The translations under genes were made by a program, and so were the position numbers. A stretch of 64,000 nt of DNA, from assembly GCA_020052645.1 (NCBI GenBank), contig JAGVOQ010000008.1, positions 61,099 to 125,098 of the forward strand. The letters run 5' to 3'. The notes under the pieces are model-generated. The model searched no databases and was not told the DNA's origin. It saw only the letters and a list, made by a program, of their open reading frames with translations. Shown in pieces: positions 44,193 to 63,637 of this stretch; position 1 is the stretch's first letter; every line of letters starts with the position of its first letter. Source of the stretch: Candidatus Omnitrophota bacterium. GTDB lineage: Bacteria; Omnitrophota; Gorgyraeia; Velamenicoccales; Velamenicoccaceae.

Positions 44193-45790
44193 AACATTTT
44201 CCATCTATCTTTTTGTTTCTTCCAATCCATTTCTTTAGCAATCTCATTTACTTTATATTCAGGTATTTCAAATATTTTCTTATCAGTGGATAGCAGGTTT
44301 TCTTCCTGAATTTCCGGCGACAAAAATAACATTCCCATAATCTGGCATATCCGCACGTGGCTTATATTAAGCCAGCCCGCCACCTGCTTTAAATCCTTGG
44401 CTTTGCCTTCTGAAATAAGCCCTTGTATCTGATGTGCCAAGAGTAAATTTTGGCGAAGTTGAGGCACGGTTTGCATTGGCTGTTGTCTTGGCGGCATCGG
44501 ATGATACTTCAGCTCATCCTTGCTCACTTCAAACTTAAATGTCTTTTTCTTATCGTTGAGCAGGATTTCAAGAATCCCGTCTTTTCCGTTATACCCAATC
44601 TCTTTAACAAGGCTTTGAAGAATGGTTCGTTTTTCTTCAAGGTTACAAGTATCCCATTCTTTGGGCGTAAGTCTTTGATCTTTAGTTATTTTCATGAGGG
44701 AGTCAAGTACCTTGGTTTCCATAAGCCCGACGTTAACGAGCTTAGTGGGGCAATCTTGATAGCCACGTTTTTGAGCATTCGAGCAGACGTAATGGCAATA
44801 ACGTATTTTGCCGTGTTTGGAACTGTGGGAATAATACATCGATTTATTGCAAGCGGAGCATTTTAAAATGTGGCTTAGAAGGCCGATTTTTTTGCCTGTG
44901 GGAGTGCGAATCTGTGGTTTAGCAGGGTGGGAGTGCAAAGCGTCTTGGACTTGCATGAAAGTTTGGTCATCGAGAATCGGTTCCTGTTCTCCGGGGTAGA
45001 GCGTGCCCTGGTATCTGACCTTTCCTATGTAATGCGCATTGTTCAGGATTTTTTCTATGGATGTAGTCGTGAATCTAACGCCCCCACCGACTTTGTTATC
45101 TGCCATATACCTGATTTTTGTTCTATAGCCTTTCTCATTCACAATTTTAGTCACGGAAAGGAGGGAGCGTTCTTTGAGGTAAAGATCGAAGAGTTCTTTG
45201 ACGATTACCGCCTCCGCAGGATTAACAACAAGTCTATGGTTTTCTTTGTTAAGGTTATAGCCAAGCGGCAGGCTCCCACCGATCCACTTGCCTTTTTTCT
45301 TGGCAGCCCCCATCTTGTCGCGGGTGCGCTCGCTGATGATTTCGCGCTCAAACTGGGCAAAAGAGAGGAGGATGTTCAGCGTCAGCCGGCCCATTGAGCT
45401 ATTGGTGTTAAAGTGTTGAGTTACGGAAACAAAAGTGACCTTATTCTGATCAAAAAACTCGAGGAGCTTGCTGAAATCAAGCAAAGATCTCGATAGCCGG
45501 TCGACTTTATAGACCACAACGCAGTTTATTTTGTCTTCTTTAATATCGGATATGAGCTTTTGTAGGGCAGGACGATCGGTGTTCGCGCCAGTGTAGCCGC
45601 CATCATCGTAGCGATCAGGTAAAACAATCCAGCCTTCGGTTTTCTGGCTCTGGATGTAGCTTTCAGATGATTCGCGCTGGTTATCAAGAGAGGTGAATTC
45701 CCGCTCTAGCCCTTCCGAAGTAGACACACGCGTGTAAATCGCGCATTTATTTTGAGGTTTTTCCTTAGAATCCGAAGAATGAGAATCCAT
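44189..45790 (-). CDS. large serine recombinase
   Basis: CAIYTRVSTSEGLEREFTSLDNQ...VYKVDRLSRSLLDFSKLL; zinc ribbon and coiled-coil C-terminus. Confidence 0.95.
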   Translation of the reverse strand: MDSHSSDSKEKPQNKCAIYTRVSTSEGLEREFTSLDNQRESSESYIQSQKTEGWIVLPDRYDDGGYTGANTDRPALQKLISDIKEDKINCVVVYKVDRLSRSLLDFSKLLEFFDQNKVTFVSVTQHFNTNSSMGRLTLNILLSFAQFEREIISERTRDKMGAAKKKGKWIGGSLPLGYNLNKENHRLVVNPAEAVIVKELFDLYLKERSLLSVTKIVNEKGYRTKIRYMADNKVGGGVRFTTTSIEKILNNAHYIGKVRYQGTLYPGEQEPILDDQTFMQVQDALHSHPAKPQIRTPTGKKIGLLSHILKCSACNKSMYYSHSSKHGKIRYCHYVCSNAQKRGYQDCPTKLVNVGLMETKVLDSLMKITKDQRLTPKEWDTCNLEEKRTILQSLVKEIGYNGKDGILEILLNDKKKTFKFEVSKDELKYHPMPPRQQPMQTVPQLRQNLLLAHQIQGLISEGKAKDLKQVAGWLNISHVRICQIMGMLFLSPEIQEENLLSTDKKIFEIPEYKVNEIAKEMDWKKQKDRWKMF

Positions 45791-46226
45791 TCCAATGGGC
45801 TCCTGTGATTTCGTAAGCTACCGCCGAGAGGCTCTTGTAAAATTTGTCTTTGTATTCAAAACCTTTCTCAAGAATCTTTACATGGTAGTCTCGGCCTTTA
45901 TATTTTTTCTGAATAAGACTGCCGGGTATCGGCAAGCGCTTATCCCTTAAGTGGGGGATAGCGACCACATTCTTACCACCAGAAACAACCTGTGGCCTGA
46001 GCGCCTTATTATTGATCGGATCGTATTTTTCAATAAGCTCAGCAATTCTGGCCTTAACTTCTTCCGAAAGGCCACCATATTTAAGCTCCTGCATACGGTA
46101 GGCGATCTTTCTGATGAGGTGGACCTTGTTGTCCGAAGGCGCCTTCTGGCCACCAAACAACGTCTCGTATTCCGCCTGAAGCTCAGGGATGTTTTTGTTC
46201 TTTAGGGCTGCTATTTTTTCTTCCAT
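45765..46226 (-). CDS. DUF2924 family protein
   Basis: LPIPGSLIQKKYKGRDYHVKILEKGFEYKDKFYKSLSAVAYEITGAHWNGFSFFGF. Confidence 0.9.
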   Translation of the reverse strand: MEEKIAALKNKNIPELQAEYETLFGGQKAPSDNKVHLIRKIAYRMQELKYGGLSEEVKARIAELIEKYDPINNKALRPQVVSGGKNVVAIPHLRDKRLPIPGSLIQKKYKGRDYHVKILEKGFEYKDKFYKSLSAVAYEITGAHWNGFSFFGF

Positions 46227-46373: not shown

Positions 46374-49364
46374 ATGAAATCCCCCATACTAAATTCTCCA
46401 TATTTAGAACCCTTTCGTCACTTTAAAGCTGACGAGCGCGGTATCACTGACGAAATTTTAGAATTTCGTCGTCCAAGTAGTTTTTACATTCCCGTTCCTC
46501 GGGCAAAGACTAAAGAAAAACAGCTTGAGCTTAATATAGCAGAGGGTGCCTTTGGCAGCGAGCTACAGAAAGAGAACGACTTTATAAATAAGGTCAGGGC
46601 TAAAGTAGCTGATTGGAGGAATAGCGGTTATCAGGGTCTTACGAAAACATCACGAGACCTCCTTGCTTATTGGCGCGATGAAACCAGGGAAAACAAATTA
46701 TTTTTTTGCCAGATCGAAGCATTAGAAACGTTAATGTTTATAAATGAAGTTGCAGAGAGATCAGGCGATAGTTGGATAATTAATGAGCTTAAGAAATCCA
46801 GCACTGATGCTAATCCTGGTTTGTATCGAATGGCCTTCAAGATGGCAACTGGTTCTGGGAAGACTGTTGTCATGGCCATGATTATTGCTTACAACACCCT
46901 CAACAAGATTCGTTATCCGCAAGATATTCGGTTTACTGATGCCTTTGCGATTATCACTCCAGGGATTACTATTCGAGATCGACTTAATGTTTTATTGCCG
47001 AACGATGTTAGCAACTATTATCGAAAACGAGACATTGTTTCTCATCAAGATTTTGAACAACTGCAGCAGGCAGTAATTCTTATAACTAATTTTCATCAAT
47101 TGGAGTTGCGTCAAAATCCTCGTTTTCAAGTCGGTGCAGTTATGAAGGCGGCAGGCCTCATTAAAGATGAAGCAGTCAAGGAGACCCCGGCTACTATGGT
47201 CAATAGAGCTTTTAAAAGTCTACTTGGTAAACCGCGAATAATAGTTATAAATGATGAGGCTCACCATTGCTACCAAGAAAAGCCAGGTGTGGAAAAATTA
47301 GTAGGAGAAGAACGTCAGGAAGCTGATGAGAATAATAAAGCAGCGAGGGTTTGGCTTAATGGGATAGCCGCTCTTTCTAAGAAAGTTGCTCTTAATGGAA
47401 TCATTGATCTTTCTGCGACACCTTATTTTTTAAGCGGCTCTGGTTATCAAGAAGGCACATTATTTCCATGGACAATTTACGATTTTTCGCTTTTAGATGC
47501 TCTGGAATGTGGAGTAGTAAAGATTCCGCGATTGCCAATTGAATCAGATACTATTAGACAAGAAGAAGAGCCCGAATTTCGCAATTTGTGGTTGTATGTT
47601 CGCGATAATTTACCAAAAAAGGGTTTAAAGACAGGAGGGAAAGATTATCTCTCGACGCTTGTCTTGCCGACGAAATTACAAGAGGCGATAGAGTCACTAT
47701 ACGGCAACTATGACCAATACTATCGTCATTATGAAGAAGCAAAGAGAAAGAATCCATCTGTAATGCCTCCTGTTATGATCGTGGTGTGCAATAACACAGC
47801 AGTTTCTGAATTAGTCTATCGATGGATTGCTGGGTATGAGGTTGAGACGGCAACAGGAAGAATCAAAATCGAGAAAGGAAATTTGGAGCATTTCAGAAAT
47901 GAAAATGGAGTACAGTTCCTTGATCGCCCTAATACACTCATTATCGATAGCGCCCAGCTAGAAAGCGGCGAAAAAGTAAATGATGAGTTCAAAAAGATTT
48001 TTGCTAAAGAAATCGAAGATTTTCATAAAGAATATCGCCATCGTTTCCAAGGAAGATCAGAGCCTACTGATGAAGAACTTTTGCGAGAGGTAATGAATAC
48101 CGTAGGAAAGCCAGGGAAACTAGGTGAAAATATTAAATGTGTAGTGTCTGTGTCGATGCTTACCGAAGGCTGGGATGTGAATACTGTTACTCACATTTTA
48201 GGCATTCGGGCTTTCTCGACTCAGCTTTTGTGTGAACAGGTAGTAGGAAGGGCTCTGAGACGTGTTGACTATGGTGTTGATGAAGGGACTGGTCTTATGA
48301 CACCAGAATATGCCGAGGTATATGGCGTGCCGTTTAGTTTCTTAAAATCTGAGGGCGTTACTCCTCCCCAGCCCCCAAAAGTTATCCACCGCGTTCGTGC
48401 TTTGCAGGAGCGTGAACAATATGAAATTACATTTCCGCGCGTTGAAGGATATAGATACGAAATAGATGAAGCGAAGCTGAAAGCCCGATTTACCGAAGAA
48501 TCAAAAACCATTATTGAAAATGAACCTACGGAGGTTACGTCGGGTGGTATTATTGGAGATACAACCGTAGAAAAACTTGAGAAAATAAAAAGCCGCAGGG
48601 AAGGAGAAGTAGTAACACGACTTGCTGAGGCCCTACTTAAACGTTACTATATGGATGCCGACGGAACGGAAAAATACTGGTTATTTCCTCAGCTTAAAAA
48701 GATTTGCGAAGAATATGCAAAGAGTTATGTTGTGTTAAAAGATCGTATGGTCATTGGTTATTTGTCTGTAGGTGAATATTTCTCTGGAGCATTAAGTAAA
48801 ATTCAACAGGGTATTGTAACCGAGAATCTTGCGCAGCAGAAAGAAAAGAAGATACTTCCGGTGCTCGCCCCCTATGATACTTTAGGTTCCACTAGATATG
48901 TGGATTTCTTGACAACTAAAGAGGTGCAGGAGACAGTGAAGAGTCACGTTAATTACATGGTTGCAGATACAAAAGAGTGGGAGCAGGGTGTTGCAACAAG
49001 GCTAGAGCAGATGACAGAGGTTCTATCTTATGTTAAAAATCAGAATTTAGGATTTGTTATTCCATATGAACACCAAGGAGCAGCACATTATTATAATCCT
49101 GATTTTATTGTAAAAATTGAGTTATCTGATAAATCAGTTTTAAATCTGATCATTGAGGTAACCGGTAAGAAAGATGATAAAAAGATAATAAAAATTAAAA
49201 CCGCCCGTGAGTTATGGATTCCTGCAATAAACAATATTGGAAAATTTGGAAAGTGGGCGATTTTGGAAGTTCAGGACATACATGAAGTGCAAAATTTAAT
49301 ACGAGCTGGTTTACAAAGAGGTTTTGATAAATTAGGGAATGATCTATGGGAAGAAAAAGGTTAA
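46374..49364 (+). CDS. Type III-like restriction endonuclease Res (DEAH helicase + PD-(D/E)XK)
   Basis: FKMATGSGKTVVMAM, VINDEAHHC, C-terminal YNPDFIVKIELSDKSVLNLIIEVTGKK. Confidence 0.92.
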   Translation: MKSPILNSPYLEPFRHFKADERGITDEILEFRRPSSFYIPVPRAKTKEKQLELNIAEGAFGSELQKENDFINKVRAKVADWRNSGYQGLTKTSRDLLAYWRDETRENKLFFCQIEALETLMFINEVAERSGDSWIINELKKSSTDANPGLYRMAFKMATGSGKTVVMAMIIAYNTLNKIRYPQDIRFTDAFAIITPGITIRDRLNVLLPNDVSNYYRKRDIVSHQDFEQLQQAVILITNFHQLELRQNPRFQVGAVMKAAGLIKDEAVKETPATMVNRAFKSLLGKPRIIVINDEAHHCYQEKPGVEKLVGEERQEADENNKAARVWLNGIAALSKKVALNGIIDLSATPYFLSGSGYQEGTLFPWTIYDFSLLDALECGVVKIPRLPIESDTIRQEEEPEFRNLWLYVRDNLPKKGLKTGGKDYLSTLVLPTKLQEAIESLYGNYDQYYRHYEEAKRKNPSVMPPVMIVVCNNTAVSELVYRWIAGYEVETATGRIKIEKGNLEHFRNENGVQFLDRPNTLIIDSAQLESGEKVNDEFKKIFAKEIEDFHKEYRHRFQGRSEPTDEELLREVMNTVGKPGKLGENIKCVVSVSMLTEGWDVNTVTHILGIRAFSTQLLCEQVVGRALRRVDYGVDEGTGLMTPEYAEVYGVPFSFLKSEGVTPPQPPKVIHRVRALQEREQYEITFPRVEGYRYEIDEAKLKARFTEESKTIIENEPTEVTSGGIIGDTTVEKLEKIKSRREGEVVTRLAEALLKRYYMDADGTEKYWLFPQLKKICEEYAKSYVVLKDRMVIGYLSVGEYFSGALSKIQQGIVTENLAQQKEKKILPVLAPYDTLGSTRYVDFLTTKEVQETVKSHVNYMVADTKEWEQGVATRLEQMTEVLSYVKNQNLGFVIPYEHQGAAHYYNPDFIVKIELSDKSVLNLIIEVTGKKDDKKIIKIKTARELWIPAINNIGKFGKWAILEVQDIHEVQNLIRAGLQRGFDKLGNDLWEEKG

Positions 49365-51820
49365 CGCCTCGGACTACTGATGCTGCAGCAGTGGCGTCAT
49401 ACAAGCATAAAGATAAAAGGAAGCGGATTCCTACCCAAGAAGAGTCTGTCAAGCTCTCCCCACGTGAGAAGCAGCCTGTAAAGAAAAGATATGATTACGA
49501 TCCTTCTCTGGATCCTCAGTTGATCTGGGCCGGAAAGAAAGAAGCGGGAAGCGAATTCTCTGTTTCTACTGTTCCTATCTACGTCCAGGAAAAAATCGCT
49601 CCAGAAGCAATTATTGCTCGGCTTAAACAAGGAGCCAAGGATGAAATGCAGTTAACGCTTTTTGGAGAGACTACTCAGCAACAGTTTGATAAGGCCGTTG
49701 AGTTCTATAAACATGAAGACAATTGGCAGAATCGCATGATATTGGGTGATTCATTGTTGGTAATGAATAGTCTACTTGAGAAAGAGGGGATGCGCGGTAA
49801 AGTACAGACTATTTACATTGATCCACCTTACGGCATAAAGTTTGGATCGAATTGGCAAGTTAGCACAAGGAAACGTGAAGTAAAAGATAATAAGATTGAC
49901 GATTTTATTCGACAGCCCGAACAGGTGAAGGCGTTCCGTGATACTTGGGAGCTTGGTATTCATTCGTATTTGTCGTATTTGAGAGATCGCTTTATTACTG
50001 CGCGTGAGCTTCTCTCGGAAAGTGGGAGTTGTTTTGTTCAAATTAACATTGAGAATGTTCATTTAGTTCGAAACATTATGGAAGAAATTTTTGATTCAAG
50101 AAACTTTGTAAGTATGATTAGTTTTTCAAAAACAAGCGGTTTTTCAGGAAAATATATTGATTCTGTATCAGATTATTTGCTTTGGTTTGCCAAAGATATC
50201 GATAATTTGAAATATAGGCAATTATATGTACCAAAAGAACCACCTGTCGATGATGCCAATTTTAGATTTGTTTTATTGGAGGATGGAAGCATAAGGAGAA
50301 TGACTGGAGATGAAAGAAGCAATCCCCTGTTGGTTTCTTCTGGGGCACGGATTTTTCGATATGACAATTTAACATCTGATGGTGCTAGTGCAAGTGAACA
50401 AGAATTTTTATTCAAGGGCTCTAAATATTTACCTGGATCAGGATTGCATTGGAAAACAACAATTGAAGGATTGAAACGACTGGCAACCATTGGTCGCATA
50501 GAGAAGGTGGGTTCGCAGTTAGCTTATGTACGTTTTTGGGGTGATTTTCCATTTGTGCCACGCGTTAATAATTGGACTGATACTGCGACAGGCGGGTTCG
50601 GGGATGAAAAATACTATGTGGTGCAAACAACTGCTAAGACTATCGCTCGTTGTGTATTGATGACAACTGATCCGGGAGATTTGGTTTTTGATCCTACTTG
50701 CGGATCGGGCACAACTGCGTTTGTTGCTGAACAATGGGGTAGGAGATGGATAACGGCTGATACATCAAGGGTTGCTTTAGCGTTAGCTCGTAGTCGACTT
50801 ATGACAGCAAAATTCCCTTACTATAAATTAAAAGATAAAAGTGAAATACGACAAGGTTTTGAATATAAGACCGTTCCGCATATTACTCTTGCTTCATTGG
50901 CGAAAGATGAGGCCTCTGAACAAGAAGTGCTCTATGATCAACCTGTCGAGGATAAAGATATTGTTAGAGTGACCGGTCCTTTCACCGTTGAGTCTCTTTC
51001 TCCTCATCGAGTTTCCGATGCGCAAGAAATGGTTTCTTCTGAACGTTTCGTTGAAATTGTCGTAGCGAATCTTTTAAAGGCCGGGGTACAAACTGGCGAA
51101 AGGGGAGCGAGAGTAGATTTTGTTAATTTAGACATTCTCCCAGGTGGGCCTGAGATTCAAGCCTCTGGGGAATATAAAACAGCACAGGGGTTAAAGAAAG
51201 TTGCTGTTGCTATTGGTCCTGAATTTGGTAGTGTTGATGATGATTTTATACGCGATGCAGCTAAAGTAGCTAAGAAATTTTCAGATCTTCTTGTGGTTGC
51301 TGCAACTGCATTCGAGGCATCGGCGTTCTCCGAGTCTTCTGAAGTTGAGAAATTACGCGTAATGAAGGTGAAGATTAATCCTGATCTCTCTATGGGCGAC
51401 CTCCTCAAGAAAACTGGATCAGGTAACTTATTTCTTGCTTTTGGTGAGCCGGACGTAAAAGTTAAACAGACCAAAGAAGGGGTTGTTGTTGAAATAATTG
51501 GCGTGGATATATACGATCCAGTTAAAAGCGAAATTCGTTCCAGCGGATCAGGTGATCCAGAGCATGAAATCGCTGCTTGGTTCATAGATACGAATTACAA
51601 TGAAGAAGCCTTCTTTGTTACTCACGCATACTTCCTCGGAGCAGATAAACCATACGAAAAACTGAAGAAGGCTCTTAAGGCAGATATTAAAGAAGACGCC
51701 TGGGATGACCTTTATTCTACTATTTCTCGTCCATTTTCAAAGCCAAAAACCGGCAAAATCGCCGTAAAGGTCATCAATCACTACGGTGATGAGGTTATGA
51801 AGGTAGTGGAAATTAAATAG
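49346..51820 (+). CDS. Type III-like DNA adenine methyltransferase Mod
   Basis: IYIDPPYGIKFGSNWQ and FDPTCGSGTTAFVAEQWGRRWI. Confidence 0.93.
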   Translation: MGRKRLTPRTTDAAAVASYKHKDKRKRIPTQEESVKLSPREKQPVKKRYDYDPSLDPQLIWAGKKEAGSEFSVSTVPIYVQEKIAPEAIIARLKQGAKDEMQLTLFGETTQQQFDKAVEFYKHEDNWQNRMILGDSLLVMNSLLEKEGMRGKVQTIYIDPPYGIKFGSNWQVSTRKREVKDNKIDDFIRQPEQVKAFRDTWELGIHSYLSYLRDRFITARELLSESGSCFVQINIENVHLVRNIMEEIFDSRNFVSMISFSKTSGFSGKYIDSVSDYLLWFAKDIDNLKYRQLYVPKEPPVDDANFRFVLLEDGSIRRMTGDERSNPLLVSSGARIFRYDNLTSDGASASEQEFLFKGSKYLPGSGLHWKTTIEGLKRLATIGRIEKVGSQLAYVRFWGDFPFVPRVNNWTDTATGGFGDEKYYVVQTTAKTIARCVLMTTDPGDLVFDPTCGSGTTAFVAEQWGRRWITADTSRVALALARSRLMTAKFPYYKLKDKSEIRQGFEYKTVPHITLASLAKDEASEQEVLYDQPVEDKDIVRVTGPFTVESLSPHRVSDAQEMVSSERFVEIVVANLLKAGVQTGERGARVDFVNLDILPGGPEIQASGEYKTAQGLKKVAVAIGPEFGSVDDDFIRDAAKVAKKFSDLLVVAATAFEASAFSESSEVEKLRVMKVKINPDLSMGDLLKKTGSGNLFLAFGEPDVKVKQTKEGVVVEIIGVDIYDPVKSEIRSSGSGDPEHEIAAWFIDTNYNEEAFFVTHAYFLGADKPYEKLKKALKADIKEDAWDDLYSTISRPFSKPKTGKIAVKVINHYGDEVMKVVEIK

Positions 51821-51848: not shown

Positions 51849-52652
51849 GTGGGAGTTCTTAGAGTTATGACTAACAAAATTGCAGGAGTTACATATGATA
51901 AATGGCTCCAAAAACCAGTAAGAAAAGCTGTAACGTCTGCAAGAATAGAAGTTAAGAAATACTCAAATAAAATTATTGCATTTGTTGACGTACTTGGAAT
52001 TACGGCTTTGATAGAGCAGCACAGGAATAATGACGAATATAAAGCAATCGATAAAATCGAAAAAATGAGAAAAATTGTTGAGGATTCAACTAAGATAATG
52101 AAACAAACAAAAAGCGTGGATTTAGAGTATTTACAAATATCCGATTCATTCGTTTTTGTTTGCGATCCCAAAACCGTCATTCTATTAATAGAATTATTAT
52201 CTACCATTCAGATGAGAATAGTTACTGAATGTCGGTTTCTTTTACGCGGAGCGATTACAATAGGTGATGCAATAGTGAGGGAATTCGGTAAATTTATTAT
52301 AGGTCCTGCCTATATACAGGCATATCGACTTCAGGAGAATGATGCGATTTATCCAAGAATTATTGTCGATAAAAGCGTTACCAAAGCAATTAAAAAAAGT
52401 ACTCATTCAATCAAAAGTTATCTACAACGAGATTTAGATAAGGAATTTTTTGTCGATTACATTAAGGTGTATATGAACAAGGAATCATTAAGCAAACAAA
52501 AAATTAAGTCTAGATTGGGACGAGAGGATATCTTCAGATATTTAAAGGATTGTTTCAATGAAAATTATCAAAAAGAAAAACATAATATTAGTCAAAAATA
52601 TGGATGGACTATACAGTACTATAAAAAATTAGAGGTGTGGGAAAATGGATAA
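51849..52652 (+). CDS. hypothetical protein with class III nucleotidyl cyclase-like fold signature
   Basis: FVDVLGITALI...ISDSFVFV...LLRGAITIGDAIVREFGKFIIGPAYIQAYRLQ resembles cyclase catalytic-domain order. Confidence 0.5.
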   Translation: MGVLRVMTNKIAGVTYDKWLQKPVRKAVTSARIEVKKYSNKIIAFVDVLGITALIEQHRNNDEYKAIDKIEKMRKIVEDSTKIMKQTKSVDLEYLQISDSFVFVCDPKTVILLIELLSTIQMRIVTECRFLLRGAITIGDAIVREFGKFIIGPAYIQAYRLQENDAIYPRIIVDKSVTKAIKKSTHSIKSYLQRDLDKEFFVDYIKVYMNKESLSKQKIKSRLGREDIFRYLKDCFNENYQKEKHNISQKYGWTIQYYKKLEVWENG

Positions 52653-54108
52653 TAAAATAAAAGTCGGGAGAAGTATATTAGAAACTATAACAGTTGCGCT
52701 TTACGAAAATCCGATAATCCTTTTTAGGGAATATGTGCAAAATTCACTTGATGCATATAATAGGGCTAGGGATGAAGGTGAAAATATAATAAAAGATTTT
52801 CATGTCGCTATTAATATTGATAAGAAGTGCAAAAAAATCGTAATCACAGATAACGGTTATGGGATTGAAACAAATGGATTATTTAAAGATAGAATGTCAA
52901 GCATAGGAAGTTCGGAGAAGCTAGGAGATAGAACAAAATATATTGGTTTTAGAGGGATAGGCCGAATTTCCGGCCTGTCATTCTGCAAGAGATTAACCTT
53001 CAAAAATAAAGCTAAAAACTCAAATAAAATTCAAAAATGCACATGGGAAGGGGAAAAATATCGCAAGTTATTAGATAATGAAGACGCCAAGGAGGACTTA
53101 CAATCAATTATAAAAAAAATTGTCACTTTTGAAGAAGAGAATACTGGGCACGAAAATAAAAGTGACCATTATTTTGAGGTTACTCTTGAAGAATATTCTA
53201 ATGAAATTGAAATAATGATAGGAGAAAATAAGTTTAAAGAGAAACTAATAAGAATGTTGCCCTTAAAATATAACGACAGCTTCAAGGGCGCTTCGAAAAT
53301 TATAAATAAATATAAGAGTTTTATGAACGAATCGCTGGAAAGGTTTATGGTTGTTGTCAAATATAATGGCGAGGATTTGCTTAAAACCTACGATAATAAA
53401 TTTATACTAGGTTCTGACGTAGTATTTTGGGAAATAAGAGGAAAACAAAAGAGAGATGGTTCTGTAGGAGATAAGATAGGACTTCTATGGTTCACATTTG
53501 ATAGGCACCTCAAATCAAATAACAATGATGAATATTACGGGATATTGACGCGGTCAAAGAATATTTTGATGGGTGCTAACGATACATTTGCTCAAGTCGC
53601 CAATGATAATAAGGAATATGTAACGACATTTAGAGAAATGGCTCAATCGTTGAGGGGCATTTACGGAGAGTTGCTAATAAATTCTCCGTTTTTAAGAGAT
53701 AACTCAAGGCGGGATTGGTTTTTGCCAGATCAGTATTCGATGGATTTGAATAACATAATTACAGATTTCATGCGTAGATTGCATAACTATAGATATTGCG
53801 CTTCAAGATACTTCAGAGCTAAACCATCGAAAAAGCAGGAAGATCTGAAGAAAGCACTTGATGAATTAGTAAATATTAAAGACAATCAAATCGATTACAG
53901 CCATTTTTATAAAAAAGAGACAGAGGAAGAGAAAGAAATTGATAAAGAACTATTCTCTGAACAGGATATTCCTCACGAGAATCAAAGTTTAAAAAAATGT
54001 TATGATATTTTAATGAGAATCATAGAGGAATATTTTAATAAAACAAAAAATCGCGTCTTATTTTTAAAACTCAGGGCACATATTGTGAATCGTTTTAAGA
54101 AAAAATAA
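52645..54108 (+). CDS. GHKL/HSP90-like ATPase
   Basis: FREYVQNSLDAYNRA (N-box), ITDNGYGIE (G1), YIGFRGIGRISG (G2). Confidence 0.88.
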   Translation: MDNKIKVGRSILETITVALYENPIILFREYVQNSLDAYNRARDEGENIIKDFHVAINIDKKCKKIVITDNGYGIETNGLFKDRMSSIGSSEKLGDRTKYIGFRGIGRISGLSFCKRLTFKNKAKNSNKIQKCTWEGEKYRKLLDNEDAKEDLQSIIKKIVTFEEENTGHENKSDHYFEVTLEEYSNEIEIMIGENKFKEKLIRMLPLKYNDSFKGASKIINKYKSFMNESLERFMVVVKYNGEDLLKTYDNKFILGSDVVFWEIRGKQKRDGSVGDKIGLLWFTFDRHLKSNNNDEYYGILTRSKNILMGANDTFAQVANDNKEYVTTFREMAQSLRGIYGELLINSPFLRDNSRRDWFLPDQYSMDLNNIITDFMRRLHNYRYCASRYFRAKPSKKQEDLKKALDELVNIKDNQIDYSHFYKKETEEEKEIDKELFSEQDIPHENQSLKKCYDILMRIIEEYFNKTKNRVLFLKLRAHIVNRFKKK

Positions 54109-54110
54109 AT

Positions 54111-55718
54111 ATGGAAAAAATACTACTCATAGAACCGGACTATAAAAATAAATTCCCGCCGATCGGTCTAATGAAAATTGCTTCATATCACCGCGGCAAA
54201 AAAGATTATGTGGAGTTTTATAAAGGTAAAGCCCCGTACACAAAAATAGTAGATTTTGATAGGGCATATATAACGACATTATTTACTTTCTATTATGACT
54301 GCACAGTTGATACCATACGGCATTATTTAAATTATATGCATAAAGACAATGTCTATGTCGGTGGAATATCTGCCACTTTGCTTGCTGAAAAATATAAAAA
54401 TGAGCTGGGGATCAAAAACGTAATTACCGGACAATTAACTAATTCTTCATCGATAGGATATAATGACTCAATAAATATAGACGAGCTTCCTCTAGATTAC
54501 GACATTCTTGACGACGTCCATTATAAATATCCATCTGGTGATAATATTTTTATTTATACAACGCGAGGTTGTTTAAGGGGATGCAAATTCTGCGCAGTTT
54601 CTAAGTTAGAACCAAAGTTTGAAGATACAAACCATATCATTAATCAAATACAGGCCATTAGGGAAAAATATGGAGATAAACGGAATGTCCTGATCATGGA
54701 CAATAATGTTTTATATTCTCGGGAATTAAATAAAGTTGTGCAAGATTTGAATTCAATTGGGTATATTAACAATACGCCTAATTATATCGAGCCTAATTAT
54801 TTTGAAATCATGCTGGAGAAAATTAAGAGGAGGAAGGAAAATAATAATGAATATGATAATCAAATTGAGGAATTAATGGAATATTTGAATAAATTCAAAA
54901 ATAGAGTCGCCTCGAAGAAGTTATGTAAAAGATATAATGAAATATTAAGTCATATAAATAATGAAGAAAACAAAATTAAAGCTTTTGATGAAGTTAAAAT
55001 GGATACCATCGAAGTCTTAGAAAAATATAGATTCAAACAAAAACTTCAACGGTATGTTGATTTTAATCAAGGGCTTGATGCTAGATTATTGACGAAAGAT
55101 AAAATGAGGATCATGTCTCGCATAGCGGTTAAGCCATTTAGGTTAGCATACGATAGTGTTAAATATAAAAAGGCATATAAAAAAGCTTTTAGCAATGCGT
55201 ATTCACACGGAGTCAGATATTTTTCGAATTACATGCTTTATAATTATAAAGATTCACCTTATGATTTATGGAAAAGGCTATATAACACAATAGTCCTATA
55301 TCAAAACAAAACAGATTTGCAAGGGTTCTCTTTCCCGATGAAGTATGCTCCCATAGATATGACAAATAGGGAATACATTGGTAAAAAATGGAATAAAAAA
55401 TATCTATCCGCTATTAATATTATCTTGAATGTCACAAAGGGTGTTGTCGCTAAAGAGAAAGATTTCTTTTTTGAAGCATTTGGATCTAGTGAAAAAGAGT
55501 ATTTTGAAATTTTATCCATGCCGAATAATTTTATAAAATATAGGATGCTATTCAAAAAAAGTGGCCATATCAGAACATGGAAAAGAAAATATAATAATTT
55601 AAATGGTAAAGAGAAGAAGACGCTTCTGGAATATTTATGTGGTTTAATAGACGGTAATAAAATTAAAAGCAAAAAGATTATTTCAATCATTGAATTATAC
55701 TCAACAAGAAAGCCCTAA
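54111..55718 (+). CDS. B12-binding-type radical SAM protein with large insertion
   Basis: TTRGCLRGCKFCAVSKLEP (CxxxCxxC); N-terminal cobalamin-domain-like LIEPDYKNKFPPIGLMKIASYHR. Confidence 0.85.
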   Translation: MEKILLIEPDYKNKFPPIGLMKIASYHRGKKDYVEFYKGKAPYTKIVDFDRAYITTLFTFYYDCTVDTIRHYLNYMHKDNVYVGGISATLLAEKYKNELGIKNVITGQLTNSSSIGYNDSINIDELPLDYDILDDVHYKYPSGDNIFIYTTRGCLRGCKFCAVSKLEPKFEDTNHIINQIQAIREKYGDKRNVLIMDNNVLYSRELNKVVQDLNSIGYINNTPNYIEPNYFEIMLEKIKRRKENNNEYDNQIEELMEYLNKFKNRVASKKLCKRYNEILSHINNEENKIKAFDEVKMDTIEVLEKYRFKQKLQRYVDFNQGLDARLLTKDKMRIMSRIAVKPFRLAYDSVKYKKAYKKAFSNAYSHGVRYFSNYMLYNYKDSPYDLWKRLYNTIVLYQNKTDLQGFSFPMKYAPIDMTNREYIGKKWNKKYLSAINIILNVTKGVVAKEKDFFFEAFGSSEKEYFEILSMPNNFIKYRMLFKKSGHIRTWKRKYNNLNGKEKKTLLEYLCGLIDGNKIKSKKIISIIELYSTRKP

Positions 55719-56104
55719 TTGTCAACAGGGGCAAAAGTAAATAAGTATTACAAACCTTACCAACTACGATAAATTTAATGATTATATTTAAAAAAGTATT
55801 ACAGGTCGCGATTTTGGGTCGGTAAATGCAACCACATTTCCCTTGTTTTTTACAAAATTTAGTGTATATTTTATTTGTACTTAACCGTACACCTAAGTAG
55901 AATAGTATTTTGGCAATTAACCCAATATAGCTTACCCTACCTAGCTTGATGGCACTTATGTTCGGATAACATAAGTGACCGGCATTCGTGTGAACGCCTA
56001 ACAGCGGCCGCGAGTATGAATACGAGCCAAAATCGTATCCAAACTTGTGTGCCGCTTTTTTGTTTGCCAAAAAAGTGGCACCAACAAAAAATTGGAGGCG
56101 TCAC

Positions 56105-57382
56105 ATGAAGATTCAAAAAGTAAAAGTCTCAGAAATAAACCCTGCCACATACAACCCTCGCAAAGACCTCAGGCCAGGTGATTCCGACTACGAGAAGCTC
56201 AAAGAAAGCATGGACACTTTTGGCTATGTAGAGTTGCTCGTATGGAATCCGCGCACCAAAACCCTCATCTCGGGCCATCAAAGATTGAAAATCCTAATCG
56301 CTCAAGGTGTAACAGAGGTAGAGGTTAGTGTTGTTGATCTGTCGCTTGATATGGAGAAGGCTCTTAACCTTGCCTTAAACAAAATCAGTGGCGATTGGGA
56401 TGAAAAGAAGCTCTCTGAATTGCTGATAGAAATACAAAAGATTCCTGATTTTGATATGGGGCTAACGGGTTTCGAGCCAGCAGAGATAAGCGAGCTCTTG
56501 GATGAGTTTTCTACACTACAGGAGGAAGATGATTTTGATTTTGAAGCTGAGGTCGAATCGATAAAAGAGCCAGTCACTAAAAGAGGCGATTTAATCGAAC
56601 TCGGTCCTCATAGAATATTATGCGGCGATTCATCTGATCCAGATGATGTAAAAATCCTAATGGGAAATGAAAAGGCCGATATTCTGGATTGCGATTTTCC
56701 GTACAACGTAAATTATGGCGGGGGCGCTACGCCAAATTCTAATACTAGACCTAAAAAATCCAGGAAGTGGTCACAGATCTATTCCGATAATATGCCACAG
56801 GCAGAATATGAAGCCTGGATGCGAAAGGTTCTTGTGATAGTAAAACAGCATCTTAAGCCCGGGGTCGCGATCTACATCTGGCAGGGGCATCGGCAATTTC
56901 CCCCGATGTATCAGATTCTTTTGGAACTAGATTTTCACATTTCCTGCGTACTCTGCTGGTTAAAAGAGTGCGGTGTAATAAGCTATGCTGACTATTCTTT
57001 CCGGACGGAACAGTGCCTTTATGGCTGGCTTAAGGGGGCGCCACATTATTGGGCTGGAAAGCCTGGAGAGAATAATGTATGGGAAGTTAAAAGAGACCCA
57101 ACAAAAAGTTATGTGCATCCAACACAAAAGCCCATACAGCTCGCCCAGCGCGCGCTCCAGAATAGCTCAAAGATTAATGATATCGTGCTCGACGTCTTCC
57201 TTGGTTCTGGCTCCGTCCTCATCGGTGCGGAAAGTGTTGGGCGCCGCTGCTACGGACTCGAAATAGATCCGCGATATGTAGACGCATGTGTTCGCCGCTA
57301 TCTCTTGTATATAGGTAAGGATAAGGCTCCGGCGGATCTTGTGAAAAAGTACTGGAAGGAGGAGCAACATGTCAGCAAATAA
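56105..57382 (+). CDS. ParB-like nuclease domain fused to DNA methyltransferase (phage type)
   Basis: VSEINPATYNPRKDLRPGDSDYEKLKESMDTFGYVELLVWN + DVFLGSGSVLIGAESVGRRCYGLEIDPRYVD; ATG at 56105 preferred. Confidence 0.9.
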   Translation: MKIQKVKVSEINPATYNPRKDLRPGDSDYEKLKESMDTFGYVELLVWNPRTKTLISGHQRLKILIAQGVTEVEVSVVDLSLDMEKALNLALNKISGDWDEKKLSELLIEIQKIPDFDMGLTGFEPAEISELLDEFSTLQEEDDFDFEAEVESIKEPVTKRGDLIELGPHRILCGDSSDPDDVKILMGNEKADILDCDFPYNVNYGGGATPNSNTRPKKSRKWSQIYSDNMPQAEYEAWMRKVLVIVKQHLKPGVAIYIWQGHRQFPPMYQILLELDFHISCVLCWLKECGVISYADYSFRTEQCLYGWLKGAPHYWAGKPGENNVWEVKRDPTKSYVHPTQKPIQLAQRALQNSSKINDIVLDVFLGSGSVLIGAESVGRRCYGLEIDPRYVDACVRRYLLYIGKDKAPADLVKKYWKEEQHVSK

Positions 57383-58034
57383 CGCTCAGACAAATAAAGA
57401 GCAGCCAATCCTTACGCTGATTCAAGACATAAAGGATGGCCGCGTAGCGCCTGAAACTATCGATAAGGACTTGCGTCAGCAGTGTGTCGAGGTCTTCTTG
57501 GCTGAGGGCTATTCTATCTCTACGATGGCGCAAATTTTTCAGAAATCCGAAAAAACGCTTCGCAGGGATCTAGATGAAATAAGGCAGCGTAATGCGCTTA
57601 CGCCTAACGTCGAGCTCGCCAAAAAGATTATTGGCGAAATCGTCACTTACACGCGCGTCCATAGAGATCATCTTATGCGTCTTGCGCGTTCAAAAGAAAC
57701 AGGCGTATCCGAGCGGGCGCAGTCTGAGTATTATGCGCATCGTGTGGGGATGGAACTGGTGGAAAAGCTTCAGACGCTAGGATATCTTCCTCTCAAGCCG
57801 AAGACCATTGTGGGTGACTTTACCCATAATATGCAGGTAAGCGACGAAAAATCCTTCGATGAGCTTAGAGTTCAGCTTCTTGAAATCGAGAGGGTAGCTT
57901 TAGAGCAGGGAGAGCTTTCGCCTGAACTCGAAGTTGAGGTAAAAAAGATCAGAGGCCGGATAGAGCAGGCTGAGATTGAAAATAGCATAACAAAGATTTT
58001 GGATCAACAAAAGAAGGAGGTTTCAAATGGTTAA
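57369..58034 (+). CDS. putative phage terminase small subunit/DNA-binding protein
   Basis: STMAQIFQKSEKTLRRDLDEI HTH; immediately upstream of and overlapping terL. Confidence 0.6.
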   Translation: MSANNAQTNKEQPILTLIQDIKDGRVAPETIDKDLRQQCVEVFLAEGYSISTMAQIFQKSEKTLRRDLDEIRQRNALTPNVELAKKIIGEIVTYTRVHRDHLMRLARSKETGVSERAQSEYYAHRVGMELVEKLQTLGYLPLKPKTIVGDFTHNMQVSDEKSFDELRVQLLEIERVALEQGELSPELEVEVKKIRGRIEQAEIENSITKILDQQKKEVSNG

Positions 58035-59589
58035 TCTTGGGTCAATAATACAAGACGTAATAGCGCTTCGCAGGAAATCTGCCAAAGACTTTGCTGCTTT
58101 TCGTAAGCATTACTTTGGTCATAGTACGCCCGATGGCACTTTTCAGAGAGAGCTTACCGGTTTTTTAGCTCAGGCTTCGCAAAAGCGGGGTACGCGGATC
58201 GCCATAGCCGCGCCGCGCGGCTTTGGCAAGAGCATGATTACCACCTGCGAATATGTTATCTATTGCATATGCTACAAGCTTGAGGATTTTATAGTGATTA
58301 TCTCAAGCACGCAGAGTCAAGTTGCAGATTTCTTGCAAAACGTAAAGCGGGAATTTGAGACAAACAAACGCCTCATAAATGACTTTCCTGACGTATATAA
58401 ACCGGATAAAAAAACATCTCTTGAACGCTGGTCTCAGGCCGAAATAGTAACGCCGAATGACGTTAAGGTATTGGCTTTAAGCACGGGGCAACAGATTAGA
58501 GGGAGGCGTTACGGAGAATCACGACCAAGCTTGATTATTCTTGACGATATTGAGACTAATGAAGCGGTCAAAAACCCTGAAAGTGCATATAATCTTGAGG
58601 ACTGGTTAACTAAGGCTGTTTTGAAATCAGGGGATGCAAGCACCAATGTTGCTTTCTTGGGTACGCTCCATCATCACAATTCATTGCTTGCCAAATTCAC
58701 TGATCCGAAACAGGTTCCGGGATGGATAAGTAAGGTTTATAAAGCTGTTATTTCCTATGCCGAAAGAACCGACTTATGGGATAAGTGGTCAAAAATCTAC
58801 TTAGGTCTTGATACCTATAAAGATGAATTTGGTTCTGATGCGGCAAGGGGGTATTTTGAAGCAAATGAAAAAGAGATGTTAAAGGGCACGCACCTATTAT
58901 GGCCGGAGCACAAAAGCTATTACGCGCTTATGGCTCAACGCGAACAGGATGGTCCTCTTAGCTTTGATAGTGAATATCAGAACGAACCGATTAATGAACG
59001 GGACTGTATTTTCAATTTGAAAGATGTTCAGTATCTGGAGGACGTATATGGTTCTGAAGAAGAATTTTTGATGAGAAGAAAAAGGCATTTATTATTCTAT
59101 GGCGCTTGCGATCCAAGCCTAGGGAAAGACCGTGAGGCAGGGGATTTCTCGGCGATTGTAACCGTGGCTATAGATGACGGCACAAGGGCAATATATGTAC
59201 TTGATGTTGATGTAGCTCGTCGCTCGCCAAGCAGGACGATAGATGTAATTCTCGAATACAATAAGATTAGAGAATATGCAAAATTTGGAATTGAGTCTAA
59301 TCAATTCCAAGAGCTTATGGTTGAAGAACTGAGACGTCGAGCCGATGAGACAAGGTGTAATCTCATCGTAAAGGAGATTAATAATACCCATAATAAACAG
59401 ATACGCATTGAAACGCTGCAGCCAATGATTAAAAGCGGTAAGCTTATACTTTCAAAAAAACACAGGGCGCTTCTTGAGGAGATGAGATTTTATCCTAAAG
59501 GAAGACATGATGATGCCCTGGACGCGCTTGAGATGGTGGTTAAGCTCTCGCTCAATTATACTGCTTTTGTGAGGTGTTTAAGCGTCTAA
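58027..59589 (+). CDS. phage terminase large subunit
   Basis: IAAPRGFGKSMITT Walker A, LIILDDIET Walker B, ACDPSLGKDREAGDFSAIV nuclease motif, RHDDALDALEM. Confidence 0.92.
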   Translation: MVNLGSIIQDVIALRRKSAKDFAAFRKHYFGHSTPDGTFQRELTGFLAQASQKRGTRIAIAAPRGFGKSMITTCEYVIYCICYKLEDFIVIISSTQSQVADFLQNVKREFETNKRLINDFPDVYKPDKKTSLERWSQAEIVTPNDVKVLALSTGQQIRGRRYGESRPSLIILDDIETNEAVKNPESAYNLEDWLTKAVLKSGDASTNVAFLGTLHHHNSLLAKFTDPKQVPGWISKVYKAVISYAERTDLWDKWSKIYLGLDTYKDEFGSDAARGYFEANEKEMLKGTHLLWPEHKSYYALMAQREQDGPLSFDSEYQNEPINERDCIFNLKDVQYLEDVYGSEEEFLMRRKRHLLFYGACDPSLGKDREAGDFSAIVTVAIDDGTRAIYVLDVDVARRSPSRTIDVILEYNKIREYAKFGIESNQFQELMVEELRRRADETRCNLIVKEINNTHNKQIRIETLQPMIKSGKLILSKKHRALLEEMRFYPKGRHDDALDALEMVVKLSLNYTAFVRCLSV

Positions 59590-60148: not shown

Positions 60149-61093
60149 ATGGGGAGAAATAAGAGCGCTAAAATGAGGGGATTATCTGATTTCTTCTTGG
60201 ATCAACTGGAGAAGGGAATCCTTCTGTCGTTACTTGAGTTAGCAAGAAAAGACAGGACCTTATGCCTTGAGATTAGGGAGAACTATATCAATATTTATTA
60301 TCGAGGCGGTAACATTTTGAAGCTTGAGGAAAAGGATGGTGCAAAAGGCGTTTATATGGCCGATTTCGACAGGAATTATCTCGATAAAGCTACGAGCCGA
60401 GTTCCTAAGGATTTACCGAAAGAATTAACTTCATGCGTAGACGTAGAGCAGTGGCTTTCAGCCGTTCCTTTTTTGAAGCATGAAATGGACCTTTGGTTCG
60501 GCAGGAACCCTAAGAATGAGCGCGAATTCCAACAGCTTATCGTGCGTGAAAACAATCTTGATAAATGTGCCAAGAGCACGGATTATTTCATCTGTGACAT
60601 AGAATATGCAAATGACAATGGAAGGTTCGACCTTATAGCCGTACGCTGGCCTTCAAGCGGCGCTGAGCGGAAGTGTAATACGAATATCGGGTTTGCGTTT
60701 ATTGAAATGAAATACAGTGATTGCGCTCTAGCAGGCAATGCTGGGTTAAAGCAACACCTTCGGGATATGAATGAGTTTCTTTCTGATCCGAAAAATTTGC
60801 GCAGTTTAAAAATCGAGATGCGGAACGTATTCAACCAAATGCGTAGGCTTAAACTGATCGATAATCAGAAAGACATTGAAAAATTCAGCAATGAGAAGCC
60901 GGAATACATATTTGTATTAGCTAACCATGACCGGGATTCTTCAATTTTGAAGAGGGAGCTCGAAGAGTTGCCATTAAGCTATCCTAATCTTGAGCTTAAA
61001 TTTGCCGTTAGTAATTTCATGGGATATGGCTTATATAAACAGAACGTCTATGCCCTCGAGGATTTTCTGGTGAGGTTTAAGGAACAGATTTGA
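60149..61093 (+). CDS. PD-(D/E)XK-like nuclease, uncharacterised
   Basis: EREFQQLIVRE...GRFDLIAVRW...IGFAFIEMKYSDCALAGNAGLKQHL (D-x-ExK plus upstream Glu and downstream Q). Confidence 0.65.
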   Translation: MGRNKSAKMRGLSDFFLDQLEKGILLSLLELARKDRTLCLEIRENYINIYYRGGNILKLEEKDGAKGVYMADFDRNYLDKATSRVPKDLPKELTSCVDVEQWLSAVPFLKHEMDLWFGRNPKNEREFQQLIVRENNLDKCAKSTDYFICDIEYANDNGRFDLIAVRWPSSGAERKCNTNIGFAFIEMKYSDCALAGNAGLKQHLRDMNEFLSDPKNLRSLKIEMRNVFNQMRRLKLIDNQKDIEKFSNEKPEYIFVLANHDRDSSILKRELEELPLSYPNLELKFAVSNFMGYGLYKQNVYALEDFLVRFKEQI

Positions 61094-61094
61094 T

Positions 61095-62387
61095 ATGAAA
61101 CTCATAATTCACCGCGGCACCCATGAAATCGGCGGCACTTGTGTTGAAATAAGCACGGATAAGACCCGCATCATAGTAGATTTCGGTATGCCTTTAGTTA
61201 CTCCCCAAAAAGAATCTTTCGATTCAAAGACGCTTATCGGCAAAACCATAGAAGACCTCAAGGGTCTTCATATTCTTCCGGAAATCCAGGGCTTCTACAA
61301 GAATGAGCTAAGAGGGATCGATGCTGTTTTGATTTCTCACGCGCACCTGGATCATTATGGTCTTTTGAATTATATCCATCCCGATATTCCCGTTTATATG
61401 AGTCAGGGCGCGCAGGAGTTAGTAGAGGTTTCAAGAATATTCACGCCCAATAAACTCAATAAGCCAAATGCAAAGGTTATCGATTACAGAAAGTCACTTG
61501 AAATAGGCGATATCAAAGTTACGCCCTATACGGTTGATCATTCTGCCTTTGACGCACTGGCTTTTTTAATCGAAGCTGATGGCAAAAGGATATTCTATTC
61601 AGGCGATTTTAGGGGCCATGGCCGAAAGAGCAAGCTATTCACGAAGATGATCAGCAGACCGCCCAAGAACATTGATTGTCTCTTGATGGAAGGTTCGACC
61701 TTAGGCAGGGAGGAGTGGCTTTATAAAGATGAGCTTGAGGTAGAGAAGGGAATCGGAGAGATCTTAAGGTCGGTAGATAACATCACCTTTCTTTTTGCTT
61801 CTTCACAGAACATTGACAGACTCGTTTCGGCATACAAGGCCTGCCTTAAAACAGACACAGTCTTCGTTATAGATATCTACACGGCCTATGTCTTGGATAG
61901 GTTAAGCAAAGTTTCAAAGCATATCCCTCAATTCAACTGGAAGAATATGCGGGTTAAGTTCTTTCAAAATCAGGCAACCACATTAGCCGATAAAGTCTCG
62001 AAAAAACTTCTGTATTCTTATAATTCCAAGAAGATCGAAATAGAGGAAATAAACAAAAGTAAGAACAAGTTCCTAATGCTTGCGCGGGATAATTCGATCT
62101 TCCCGCGTATTCTGAAAGCCATCGCCGATCCTAAGGGCGCCAAGATCATATACTCCATGTGGGATGGGTATTTGACGGATGAATTTAAGAAATTCTGCGA
62201 AGATAAGGGACTGGTCATTGAAGAAGTCCACACAAGCGGTCACGCAACAATAAAGGACCTAAAGGCCTTCGCGCGCGCTTTAAATCCCAAGATGCTTATC
62301 CCGATTCATACGTTTGAGCCGGACAAATATCCGAGCCTTTTTGATAAAGTTAGGGTTTTAGAAGATGGCGAAGCCATAGAGCTATGA
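61095..62387 (+). CDS. MBL-fold beta-CASP ribonuclease-like protein
   Basis: LISHAHLDHYGLL HxHxDH; YSGDFRGHGRKS; C-terminal HTSGHAT and PIHTFEPDKYPSLF. Confidence 0.88.
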   Translation: MKLIIHRGTHEIGGTCVEISTDKTRIIVDFGMPLVTPQKESFDSKTLIGKTIEDLKGLHILPEIQGFYKNELRGIDAVLISHAHLDHYGLLNYIHPDIPVYMSQGAQELVEVSRIFTPNKLNKPNAKVIDYRKSLEIGDIKVTPYTVDHSAFDALAFLIEADGKRIFYSGDFRGHGRKSKLFTKMISRPPKNIDCLLMEGSTLGREEWLYKDELEVEKGIGEILRSVDNITFLFASSQNIDRLVSAYKACLKTDTVFVIDIYTAYVLDRLSKVSKHIPQFNWKNMRVKFFQNQATTLADKVSKKLLYSYNSKKIEIEEINKSKNKFLMLARDNSIFPRILKAIADPKGAKIIYSMWDGYLTDEFKKFCEDKGLVIEEVHTSGHATIKDLKAFARALNPKMLIPIHTFEPDKYPSLFDKVRVLEDGEAIEL

Positions 62388-62485
62388 GTTGTTGACAAAG
62401 GCGAAAATTAGCGCTATTTTTATGTTATAGATTTGCCGGCAGTGGTGAAGTTAGAAGGGGTAAATCCGCCACTTAAAACAATAAA

Positions 62486-62517
62486 AACCTTCGCCAAAAA
62501 AGGCGGAGGTTTTTTGC
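62486..62517 (+). terminator. Rho-independent terminator
   Basis: AAAAACCTTCGCCAAAAAAGGCGGAGGTTTTTT. Confidence 0.85.
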
Positions 62518-62566
62518 AGCCTATAGATTTGAGAAGGTATCAATAAACAGTCTGGGCATATGTAAT

Positions 62567-63637
62567 ATGAATACCATGAGAACAATTTTATATTATCCAG
62601 CCATAGCAATTCCTCAAGGTGATTGGTTAAAACAAACTCTGTTATATTGGGATCAAGTCGCCAGCATTGTTCCTGCGAGATTCCATACTGAAGTATCGGA
62701 GAATGGAGGAAGATTATTATTAGAAGACCCAACCATTAAATATTTAATAGATGAAAATGCTTATAGAACTATTTGGGCAGATCGCGCATTTTTTAGAGCA
62801 CATCCTGAACATCGTAAAATGGTTGAAGAATTTAATAATATTGTAGATTCTCAGGAATTTATTAATTTCTTGGGTCCTAGTAACAATTGGAAATTGGATT
62901 CTAAGATATTCGCAGATAAAATCTTAGCTGATAGTATAGAATTTCTACAAGAAAGAAAATTAGTTCGCATAGAAGATGACGGATTCGAATATTTCTTAGA
63001 GCGCAAAACGGCTTTATTATATATGTCTTTGCTCGCAAAATATTTAGCAGATCTTGAAGTGTGCTTGACAATTCCTGCAACAGATGTCGAATGTTATAGA
63101 GATTTTATGTATTTCCCAGCAAATGTAAGCAGGAATTCTAACTGTTTAAGTTTAATATTGAAGAATATGCTTCTAATACCAAGGAACGATGTTTCTTTAG
63201 AGGACATAATTAAGTTTAAGAAGCGGAGAAAATTAGAGTTACTAAAGTTTCATGAAGTAATTTGGCAATTTGAAAAAGAATTAGCTGAATCGGATAATGA
63301 AAAAGAAGCCTACGAAGTATGTATGAGATTCAGCGCTCGCATAAAGATTGAAATGGCAGAATTAAACGAAATACTGGATGACGCTAGAATTGCCACAGTA
63401 TTTGGTACGCTTAAATCTTTGATTGATTTAAAATCACCCGCATTATGGTCTACTCTAGGGGCTTTATCTGGGAAAGAGATTATTGATCTGCCAACTAGCG
63501 TTATGTGGGCAGGGGCGGGGGTTGCGGGGGCCGTTCAAGTCGGCGCGCATCTTATAGATGAGCGCAATAAAAAGAGGGCTGCTATGAGAAATTCGGCATT
63601 TTCATATCTATATTATGCTAGCAAAGATTTGTTGTAA
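62567..63637 (+). CDS. DUF6236-like protein
   Basis: ILYYPAIAIPQGDWLKQTLLYWDQVASIVP; C-terminal hydrophobic segment. Confidence 0.6.
   Translation: MNTMRTILYYPAIAIPQGDWLKQTLLYWDQVASIVPARFHTEVSENGGRLLLEDPTIKYLIDENAYRTIWADRAFFRAHPEHRKMVEEFNNIVDSQEFINFLGPSNNWKLDSKIFADKILADSIEFLQERKLVRIEDDGFEYFLERKTALLYMSLLAKYLADLEVCLTIPATDVECYRDFMYFPANVSRNSNCLSLILKNMLLIPRNDVSLEDIIKFKKRRKLELLKFHEVIWQFEKELAESDNEKEAYEVCMRFSARIKIEMAELNEILDDARIATVFGTLKSLIDLKSPALWSTLGALSGKEIIDLPTSVMWAGAGVAGAVQVGAHLIDERNKKRAAMRNSAFSYLYYASKDLL

Follow-up and report, generated by a model that had tools for sequence, protein, structure and literature searches.

Immune systems of the Pycsar type pair a class III nucleotidyl cyclase, PycC, with a cyclic-nucleotide-binding TIR or membrane effector (PycTIR or PycTM). 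The metal-binding Asp residues of the cyclase are 44 residues apart, D102/D146 in EaPycC and D62/D106 in AnPycC (PMC11224242). HerA and NurA of Deinococcus radiodurans have been studied as a DNA end-resection pair, in a paper that mentions no radical-SAM enzyme (PMC9960219). Here, a three-gene operon from a Candidatus Omnitrophota bacterium was analysed and compared with these and other systems. The operon lies in a window of 64,000 nucleotides, the whole stretch of DNA under analysis (contig JAGVOQ010000008.1, positions 61,099 to 125,098), which belongs to a draft genome of 1.7 Mb. It encodes a protein of the class III nucleotidyl cyclase fold, an Hsp90-like ATPase of the GHKL type and a radical-SAM enzyme, together referred to as the trio. 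The reading preferred here, to which a probability of about 0.45 is given, is that the trio is an autonomous conflict cassette which spreads by horizontal transfer, is most likely directed against phages or plasmids, and represents the cyclase branch of a family built from a radical-SAM hub, Hsp90-like adaptors and swappable outputs.

All three open reading frames are on the forward strand downstream of mod. The cyclase gene (51867..52652) overlaps the gene for the 487-aa GHKL ATPase (52645..54108) by 8 nt, and a gap of 2 nt separates the latter from the gene for the 535-aa radical-SAM enzyme (54111..55718). The tight packing of the three same-strand genes after mod, and the motifs they contain, are thus as described in the initial annotation. 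The first reading frame is also open from a GTG at 51849. Since the DNA matches that of other copies from about 51865 onwards, and the ATG at 51867 corresponds to the start in two of them (loci L002 and L003), this ATG is very probably the start of the gene. The distance from mod is therefore 46 nt, in place of the 28 bp given earlier.

The extent of the transferable unit was delimited by blastn against close copies (L002, L003, L015 and L125). Nucleotide identity to the window is 76–83% inside 51865..55699 (+), and the flanks are unrelated except for short matches within the mod gene of L002; the start of homology in L015 is masked by N. All three genes were found in nine loci from four phyla, namely Omnitrophota (the window), Nitrospirota (L015, a metagenome-assembled genome, MAG), Mycoplasmatota (L017 and L028) and Bacillota (L018–L022). 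Two further loci are cut by contig ends. One is in the viral contig L002 and the other in genome G066, of the same phylum as the window genome, where the trio is split into a cyclase half and a radical-SAM half, each at the end of a different contig (L016); locus L125 of this genome matches the L016 genes. The ratio of nonsynonymous to synonymous substitution rates (dN/dS) is 0.05–0.15 in all three genes, which are thus under purifying selection. Because the trio recurs in other phyla and selection acts on each of its genes, the arrangement is not a product of chance, and the association first proposed from a single locus holds elsewhere. The cyclase gene is the first of the three in 8/9 loci. 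In the radical-SAM tree the nine cyclase-linked rows, together with L016, form one clade (Shimodaira–Hasegawa-like approximate likelihood ratio test, 99). Presence is patchy, full-length radical-SAM members being found in 2 of the 285 genomes of the window's phylum. Because the sequence of the L015 copy is close to those from Omnitrophota, this copy may reflect recent transfer or misbinning.

The trio had originally been described as standing behind a Type III-like restriction-modification (RM) pair. Its position is as stated: res (46374-49364) and mod (49346-51820) precede it on the forward strand (46374..51820; NCBIfam BPTD_3080 family, PADLOC MTase_III 6.5e-215). The pair is nevertheless outside the unit, because homology extends no further upstream than the start of the cyclase gene, and what precedes the trio is different in other copies. 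In L002 it is an RM pair of inverted order, distantly related to that of the window (45% and 32% protein identity), and in G066 apparently a gene for a sigma-54-type response regulator. Related RM pairs precede the trio in two of four close copies.

GHKL–radical-SAM operons form a larger family, within which the trio is a single branch. A radical-SAM profile search of genome contigs gave 289 relatives, and the best 80, ranked by similarity to the window protein, were inspected together with 11 viral contigs and alphaproteobacterial plasmids; many of the contigs surveyed are short MAG contigs. A GHKL gene lies in the same co-oriented run as the radical-SAM gene in 82/96 loci, a count which rules out accidental neighbourhood. 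At least five types of partner accompany this core. HerA with a NurA-like protein is the commonest. In other loci the partner is an AAA_15 ATPase (PADLOC NsnB, 7e-67) together with an uncharacterised protein, a 330-aa protein of no known family (f11), a DGQHR protein, which ParB and helicase genes often accompany, a PIN-like protein or the cyclase. The identity of HerA is firm (PDB profile match to 7f6d HerA, E=1.7e-56). The NurA assignment is weaker; Pfam gave no match, and the assignment rests on one weak PDB match, to the NurA chain of 7f6d (E=0.008), and on the annotation of a temperate phage, Marinitoga camini virus 1 (L148, 37383-41209), in which HerA and a Rad50/Mre11-associated exonuclease are annotated beside a short radical-SAM relative.

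Partner labels were compared with the trees of the two core proteins. On the GHKL tree they need 10 changes (minimum 6, shuffled mean 48); the f11-linked, PIN-linked and radical-SAM-upstream-linked proteins form single clades, f11 needing 1 change for 7 rows. On the radical-SAM tree 28 changes are needed, a count inflated by the coarse labels at two-partner loci, and f11-linked members need 8 changes for 9 rows. At several loci one radical-SAM gene is common to two partner–GHKL pairs. Since the GHKL tree sorts by partner, the radical-SAM tree does not, and one radical-SAM enzyme can be common to two pairs, these phylogenies suggest that the GHKL protein is a partner-specific adaptor on a shared radical-SAM hub.

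Some operons of the family are worth describing in themselves. Four-gene operons of NurA-like protein, HerA, Hsp90-like GHKL and radical SAM are seen in L032, L037, L047, L052, L063 and others, and in some of them a second partner–GHKL pair uses the single radical-SAM gene as well. Alphaproteobacterial plasmids, conjugative and other (L009–L014, e.g. Novosphingobium pNL1), carry DGQHR, radical SAM and GHKL in one operon, often adjoining PIN-like plus GHKL and ParB/helicase genes; the DGQHR partner in the alphaproteobacterial members matches TIGR03187 at 2.1e-41.

No model matching the cyclase protein was found in Pfam, NCBIfam or PADLOC. A single-sequence phmmer search of the PDB gave chance matches only, and with profiles built from 14 or 25 relatives the matches to class III cyclases had E values of 0.03–2, not significant alone. 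As these searches gave no assignment, structure prediction was required. The AlphaFold2 model, built from an alignment with 24 relatives, had a predicted local distance difference test score (pLDDT) of 84.4 and a predicted template modelling score of 0.80. With Foldseek, 50/50 of the best PDB matches listed were class III nucleotidyl cyclase-fold proteins, at E 2.2e-6 and weaker, probability 1.0 and target TM up to 0.73 among those listed. On the predicted structure, therefore, the first protein is of the class III nucleotidyl cyclase fold. Two Asp residues, D47 in FVDVLG (51987..51989, +) and D99 in ISDSF (52143..52145, +; numbering from 51849), are invariant in 25 cyclase sequences and 52 residues apart. 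In the model D47 lies where strand 1 ends, and D99 belongs to the hairpin of strands 2 and 3 (E92-97/E100-105), which are the two places of the metal Asp residues; placed in this way by secondary structure, they form a plausible candidate metal site. The fold and the Asp pair, which had been read from motif order, thus withstood the structural check. The window cyclase also has a match in phrog_23933. Phages and plasmids encode a broad family of cyclase-like proteins of ~250 aa, whose neighbours are unrelated (viral contigs L107–L124), and a search of a viral structure library with the cyclase added little.

The second protein is, from its sequence, an Hsp90-like GHKL ATPase. It matches Pfam HATPase_c_3 (1.8e-12), and a profile of 12 GHKL members matched HtpG and Hsp90 in the PDB. 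The N, G1 and G2 boxes, reported as intact from the start, are invariant at all box residues in 33 relatives (E29/N33, D69/G73, G101/G104/G106). R356, within a PNxRRDxF-type motif, is invariant in the same relatives; we take this motif to resemble that of the Hsp90 middle-domain Arg.

The third protein matches Pfam Radical_SAM at 1.4e-8. Its AlphaFold2 model (pLDDT 94.9) consists of a Rossmann-like N-terminal domain, a radical-SAM core and a helical C terminus, and MgmA, AprD4, MiaB and RimO were the nearest folds among the 50 matches listed; these are B12-type and methylthiotransferase-type radical-SAM enzymes. The cysteines of the CxxxCxxC iron-sulfur motif (54570..54593, +) seen in the initial annotation, C154, C158 and C161, are kept in 96, 96 and 95 of 96 aligned rows, the single exception being an X. 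Near-invariant motifs in the same 96 sequences are CxxxCxFC, MDNN, DFNQGxDAR, SNY and SFPM, and the enzyme looks catalytically competent. With respect to cobalamin, the N-terminal domain is Rossmann-like and MgmA and AprD4 are nearest in fold; no clear DxHxxG motif was seen by eye. Viperin-like chemistry was considered and put aside, as no viperin structure was present among the 50 fold matches listed and no PADLOC viperin model matched.

Genes of restriction systems accompany the trio: Type III-like RM genes in the window and L002, and, in L018 and L020, a gene for a Type IV methyl-directed restriction endonuclease that immediately follows the trio (PADLOC ~1e-222). Members of the GHKL–radical-SAM family are carried on conjugative plasmids and in viral contigs, and serine recombinase and terminase genes lie near the trio of the window. 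From these restriction-gene, plasmid and phage contexts, and from the patchy distribution, we infer that a defence or anti-invader function of the cassette is reasonably probable; all of this is association and does not amount to proof.

The wider surroundings in the window are as follows. Z1-domain helicase-like protein, resembling MzaC and Type II RM-associated helicase, is encoded at 41991-44192 (+). At 44189-46226 (-) a DUF2924 gene stands ahead of a large serine recombinase of the integrase family; this pair recurs in viral contig L095 close to a GHKL–radical-SAM locus, and the loci of L098, L100 and L104 have just the recombinase nearby. Just downstream of the trio, 56102-59589 (+) holds a phage remnant with a ParB-DNA methyltransferase fusion, a small helix-turn-helix protein and the large subunit of a phage terminase. 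The stretch 60149-63637 (+) encodes an unknown 314-aa protein and a beta-CASP metallo-beta-lactamase RNase that is RNase J-like and has a weaker match to the Cas14 model of type VII CRISPR; a 356-aa protein of this stretch has a weak LmuC match.

In the mechanism proposed for the cassette, the radical-SAM enzyme would modify a target (nucleic acid, protein or nucleotide) whose state is not the same in self and invader. The second component, the Hsp90-like ATPase, would read that state, or it would clamp the partner in an ATP-dependent manner. On activation the partner would act, by DNA degradation in the case of NurA-HerA and presumably by RNA cleavage in that of the PIN protein. The cyclase may instead make a cyclic nucleotide or related nucleotide product for a receptor encoded elsewhere. 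The parts of this scheme that go beyond observation are defence itself, the sequence in which the steps occur, what the radical-SAM enzyme acts on and what the cyclase makes, and the hub-adaptor-output mechanism is rated below the defence function. Extended to the whole family, the scheme would describe a new modular immunity, in which interchangeable outputs share one radical-SAM hub, every output being coupled to it by an Hsp90-like ATPase of its own. The outputs would be the HerA-NurA nuclease, the PIN protein, the OLD-like ATPase, the DGQHR protein and the nucleotidyl cyclase, and the trio would be the nucleotide-signal arm. This broader proposal is put forward tentatively.

Several observations weigh against the conflict-cassette reading and its proposed mechanism. 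The transition state in canonical class III cyclases is stabilised by an Asn and an Arg of the VNxAxRL helix. Asn/Arg at cyclase positions 156 and 160 are not conserved in the 25-sequence alignment, so the reaction may differ or be absent. This lack of conservation bears on activity and not on membership of the fold; in view of it, and of an Asp spacing unlike that of PycC, prediction establishes the fold and not catalytic activity. Within the operon no receptor that binds cyclic nucleotides was detected, and, beside nucleases, a cyclase makes an unusual output. The gene order of the L028 trio is different, and the best-80 sample is biased toward near relatives.

Two other modes of defence are each considered unlikely. 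In the first, as in Pycsar, the cyclase would sense infection and make a cyclic mononucleotide, and the Hsp90-like ATPase with the radical-SAM enzyme would be the messenger-activated effector. The class III fold with its Asp pair, the leading position of the cyclase in most trio loci and the phage and plasmid settings of its relatives agree with such an arrangement. However, the GHKL–radical-SAM pair also accompanies NurA-HerA and other partners from which no messenger would be expected, and is therefore unlikely to be a dedicated messenger receptor. Moreover, Pfam and NCBIfam revealed no cyclic-nucleotide-binding domain in the trio, and the PADLOC Pycsar cyclase models matched 0/25 cyclase members. 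In the second, the radical-SAM enzyme would mark DNA or RNA as self, and nucleic acid lacking the mark would be attacked, or signalled against, by the GHKL-partner pair, as in Dnd/Dpd. Such a role would suit the similarity in fold to MiaB, RimO and MgmA, enzymes that modify tRNA or protein, as well as the HerA-NurA and DGQHR (DndB/DpdB-like) partners and the related radical-SAM genes of phages. It is opposed by the cyclase, which is not a restriction activity, and no DNA-recognition subunit was found. Least likely is a mobile repair, stress or regulatory operon merely carried on elements, a view for which the end-resection work on HerA-NurA speaks (PMC9960219) but against which stand the patchy distribution, the plasmid and viral carriage and the restriction-gene neighbours in independent lineages.

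If the conflict-cassette reading is true, an Hsp90-type ATPase and a radical-SAM core would be combined with swappable nuclease, ATPase or cyclase outputs, and chaperone-like switching, radical chemistry and nucleotide signalling would be joined in one immune architecture. A function would also be given to hundreds of operons (289 matches in one scan) annotated merely as ATP-binding protein and radical SAM protein. The family is testable now, since it is represented on plasmids of Alphaproteobacteria as well as in cultured Alkaliphilus, Chryseobacterium and Flavobacterium. The trio has no match in PADLOC (2023), and no description of it or of a GHKL–radical-SAM system was found in open-access papers, preprints being outside the search, which agrees with the statement in the initial annotation that no described system with these three genes was known to it. 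An account may nevertheless exist in a subscription journal, in a preprint or in a catalogue later than 2023. The operon family is apparently both widespread and undescribed.

Compared with known systems, the trio resembles Pycsar in its single-domain class III cyclase fold, two conserved metal Asp residues and small operon, and F-x-D precedes the first Asp in AnPycC and EaPycC as in the window cyclase (PMC11224242). It differs in the Asp spacing (44 in PycC, 52 here) and in the partners, an Hsp90-like ATPase and a radical-SAM enzyme. Pfam, NCBIfam and PADLOC found no cyclic-nucleotide-binding, TIR or membrane effector in the operon, and for want of this effector the trio is not placed in Pycsar. 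HerA and NurA-like proteins, the counterparts of the Deinococcus machine (PDB 7f6d), are the commonest partners of the same core elsewhere and are absent from the trio. The pairing of a DGQHR protein with radical SAM and GHKL in alphaproteobacterial members recalls DndB/DpdB of Dnd/Dpd, whereas no sulfur-transfer or TGT-like modification genes were seen in the GHKL–radical-SAM loci; the modifier, if any, would be the radical-SAM enzyme. Prokaryotic viperins are likewise radical-SAM enzymes in a likely antiviral setting, but the fold search leads to MgmA, AprD4, MiaB and RimO. The N-terminal ATPase domain of the GHKL protein matches the HtpG and Hsp90 profiles, although the protein has 487 aa, matches in that domain only and scores far below the HtpG cut-off. 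To immune systems in which effectors are swapped, the GHKL–radical-SAM family bears a partial likeness.

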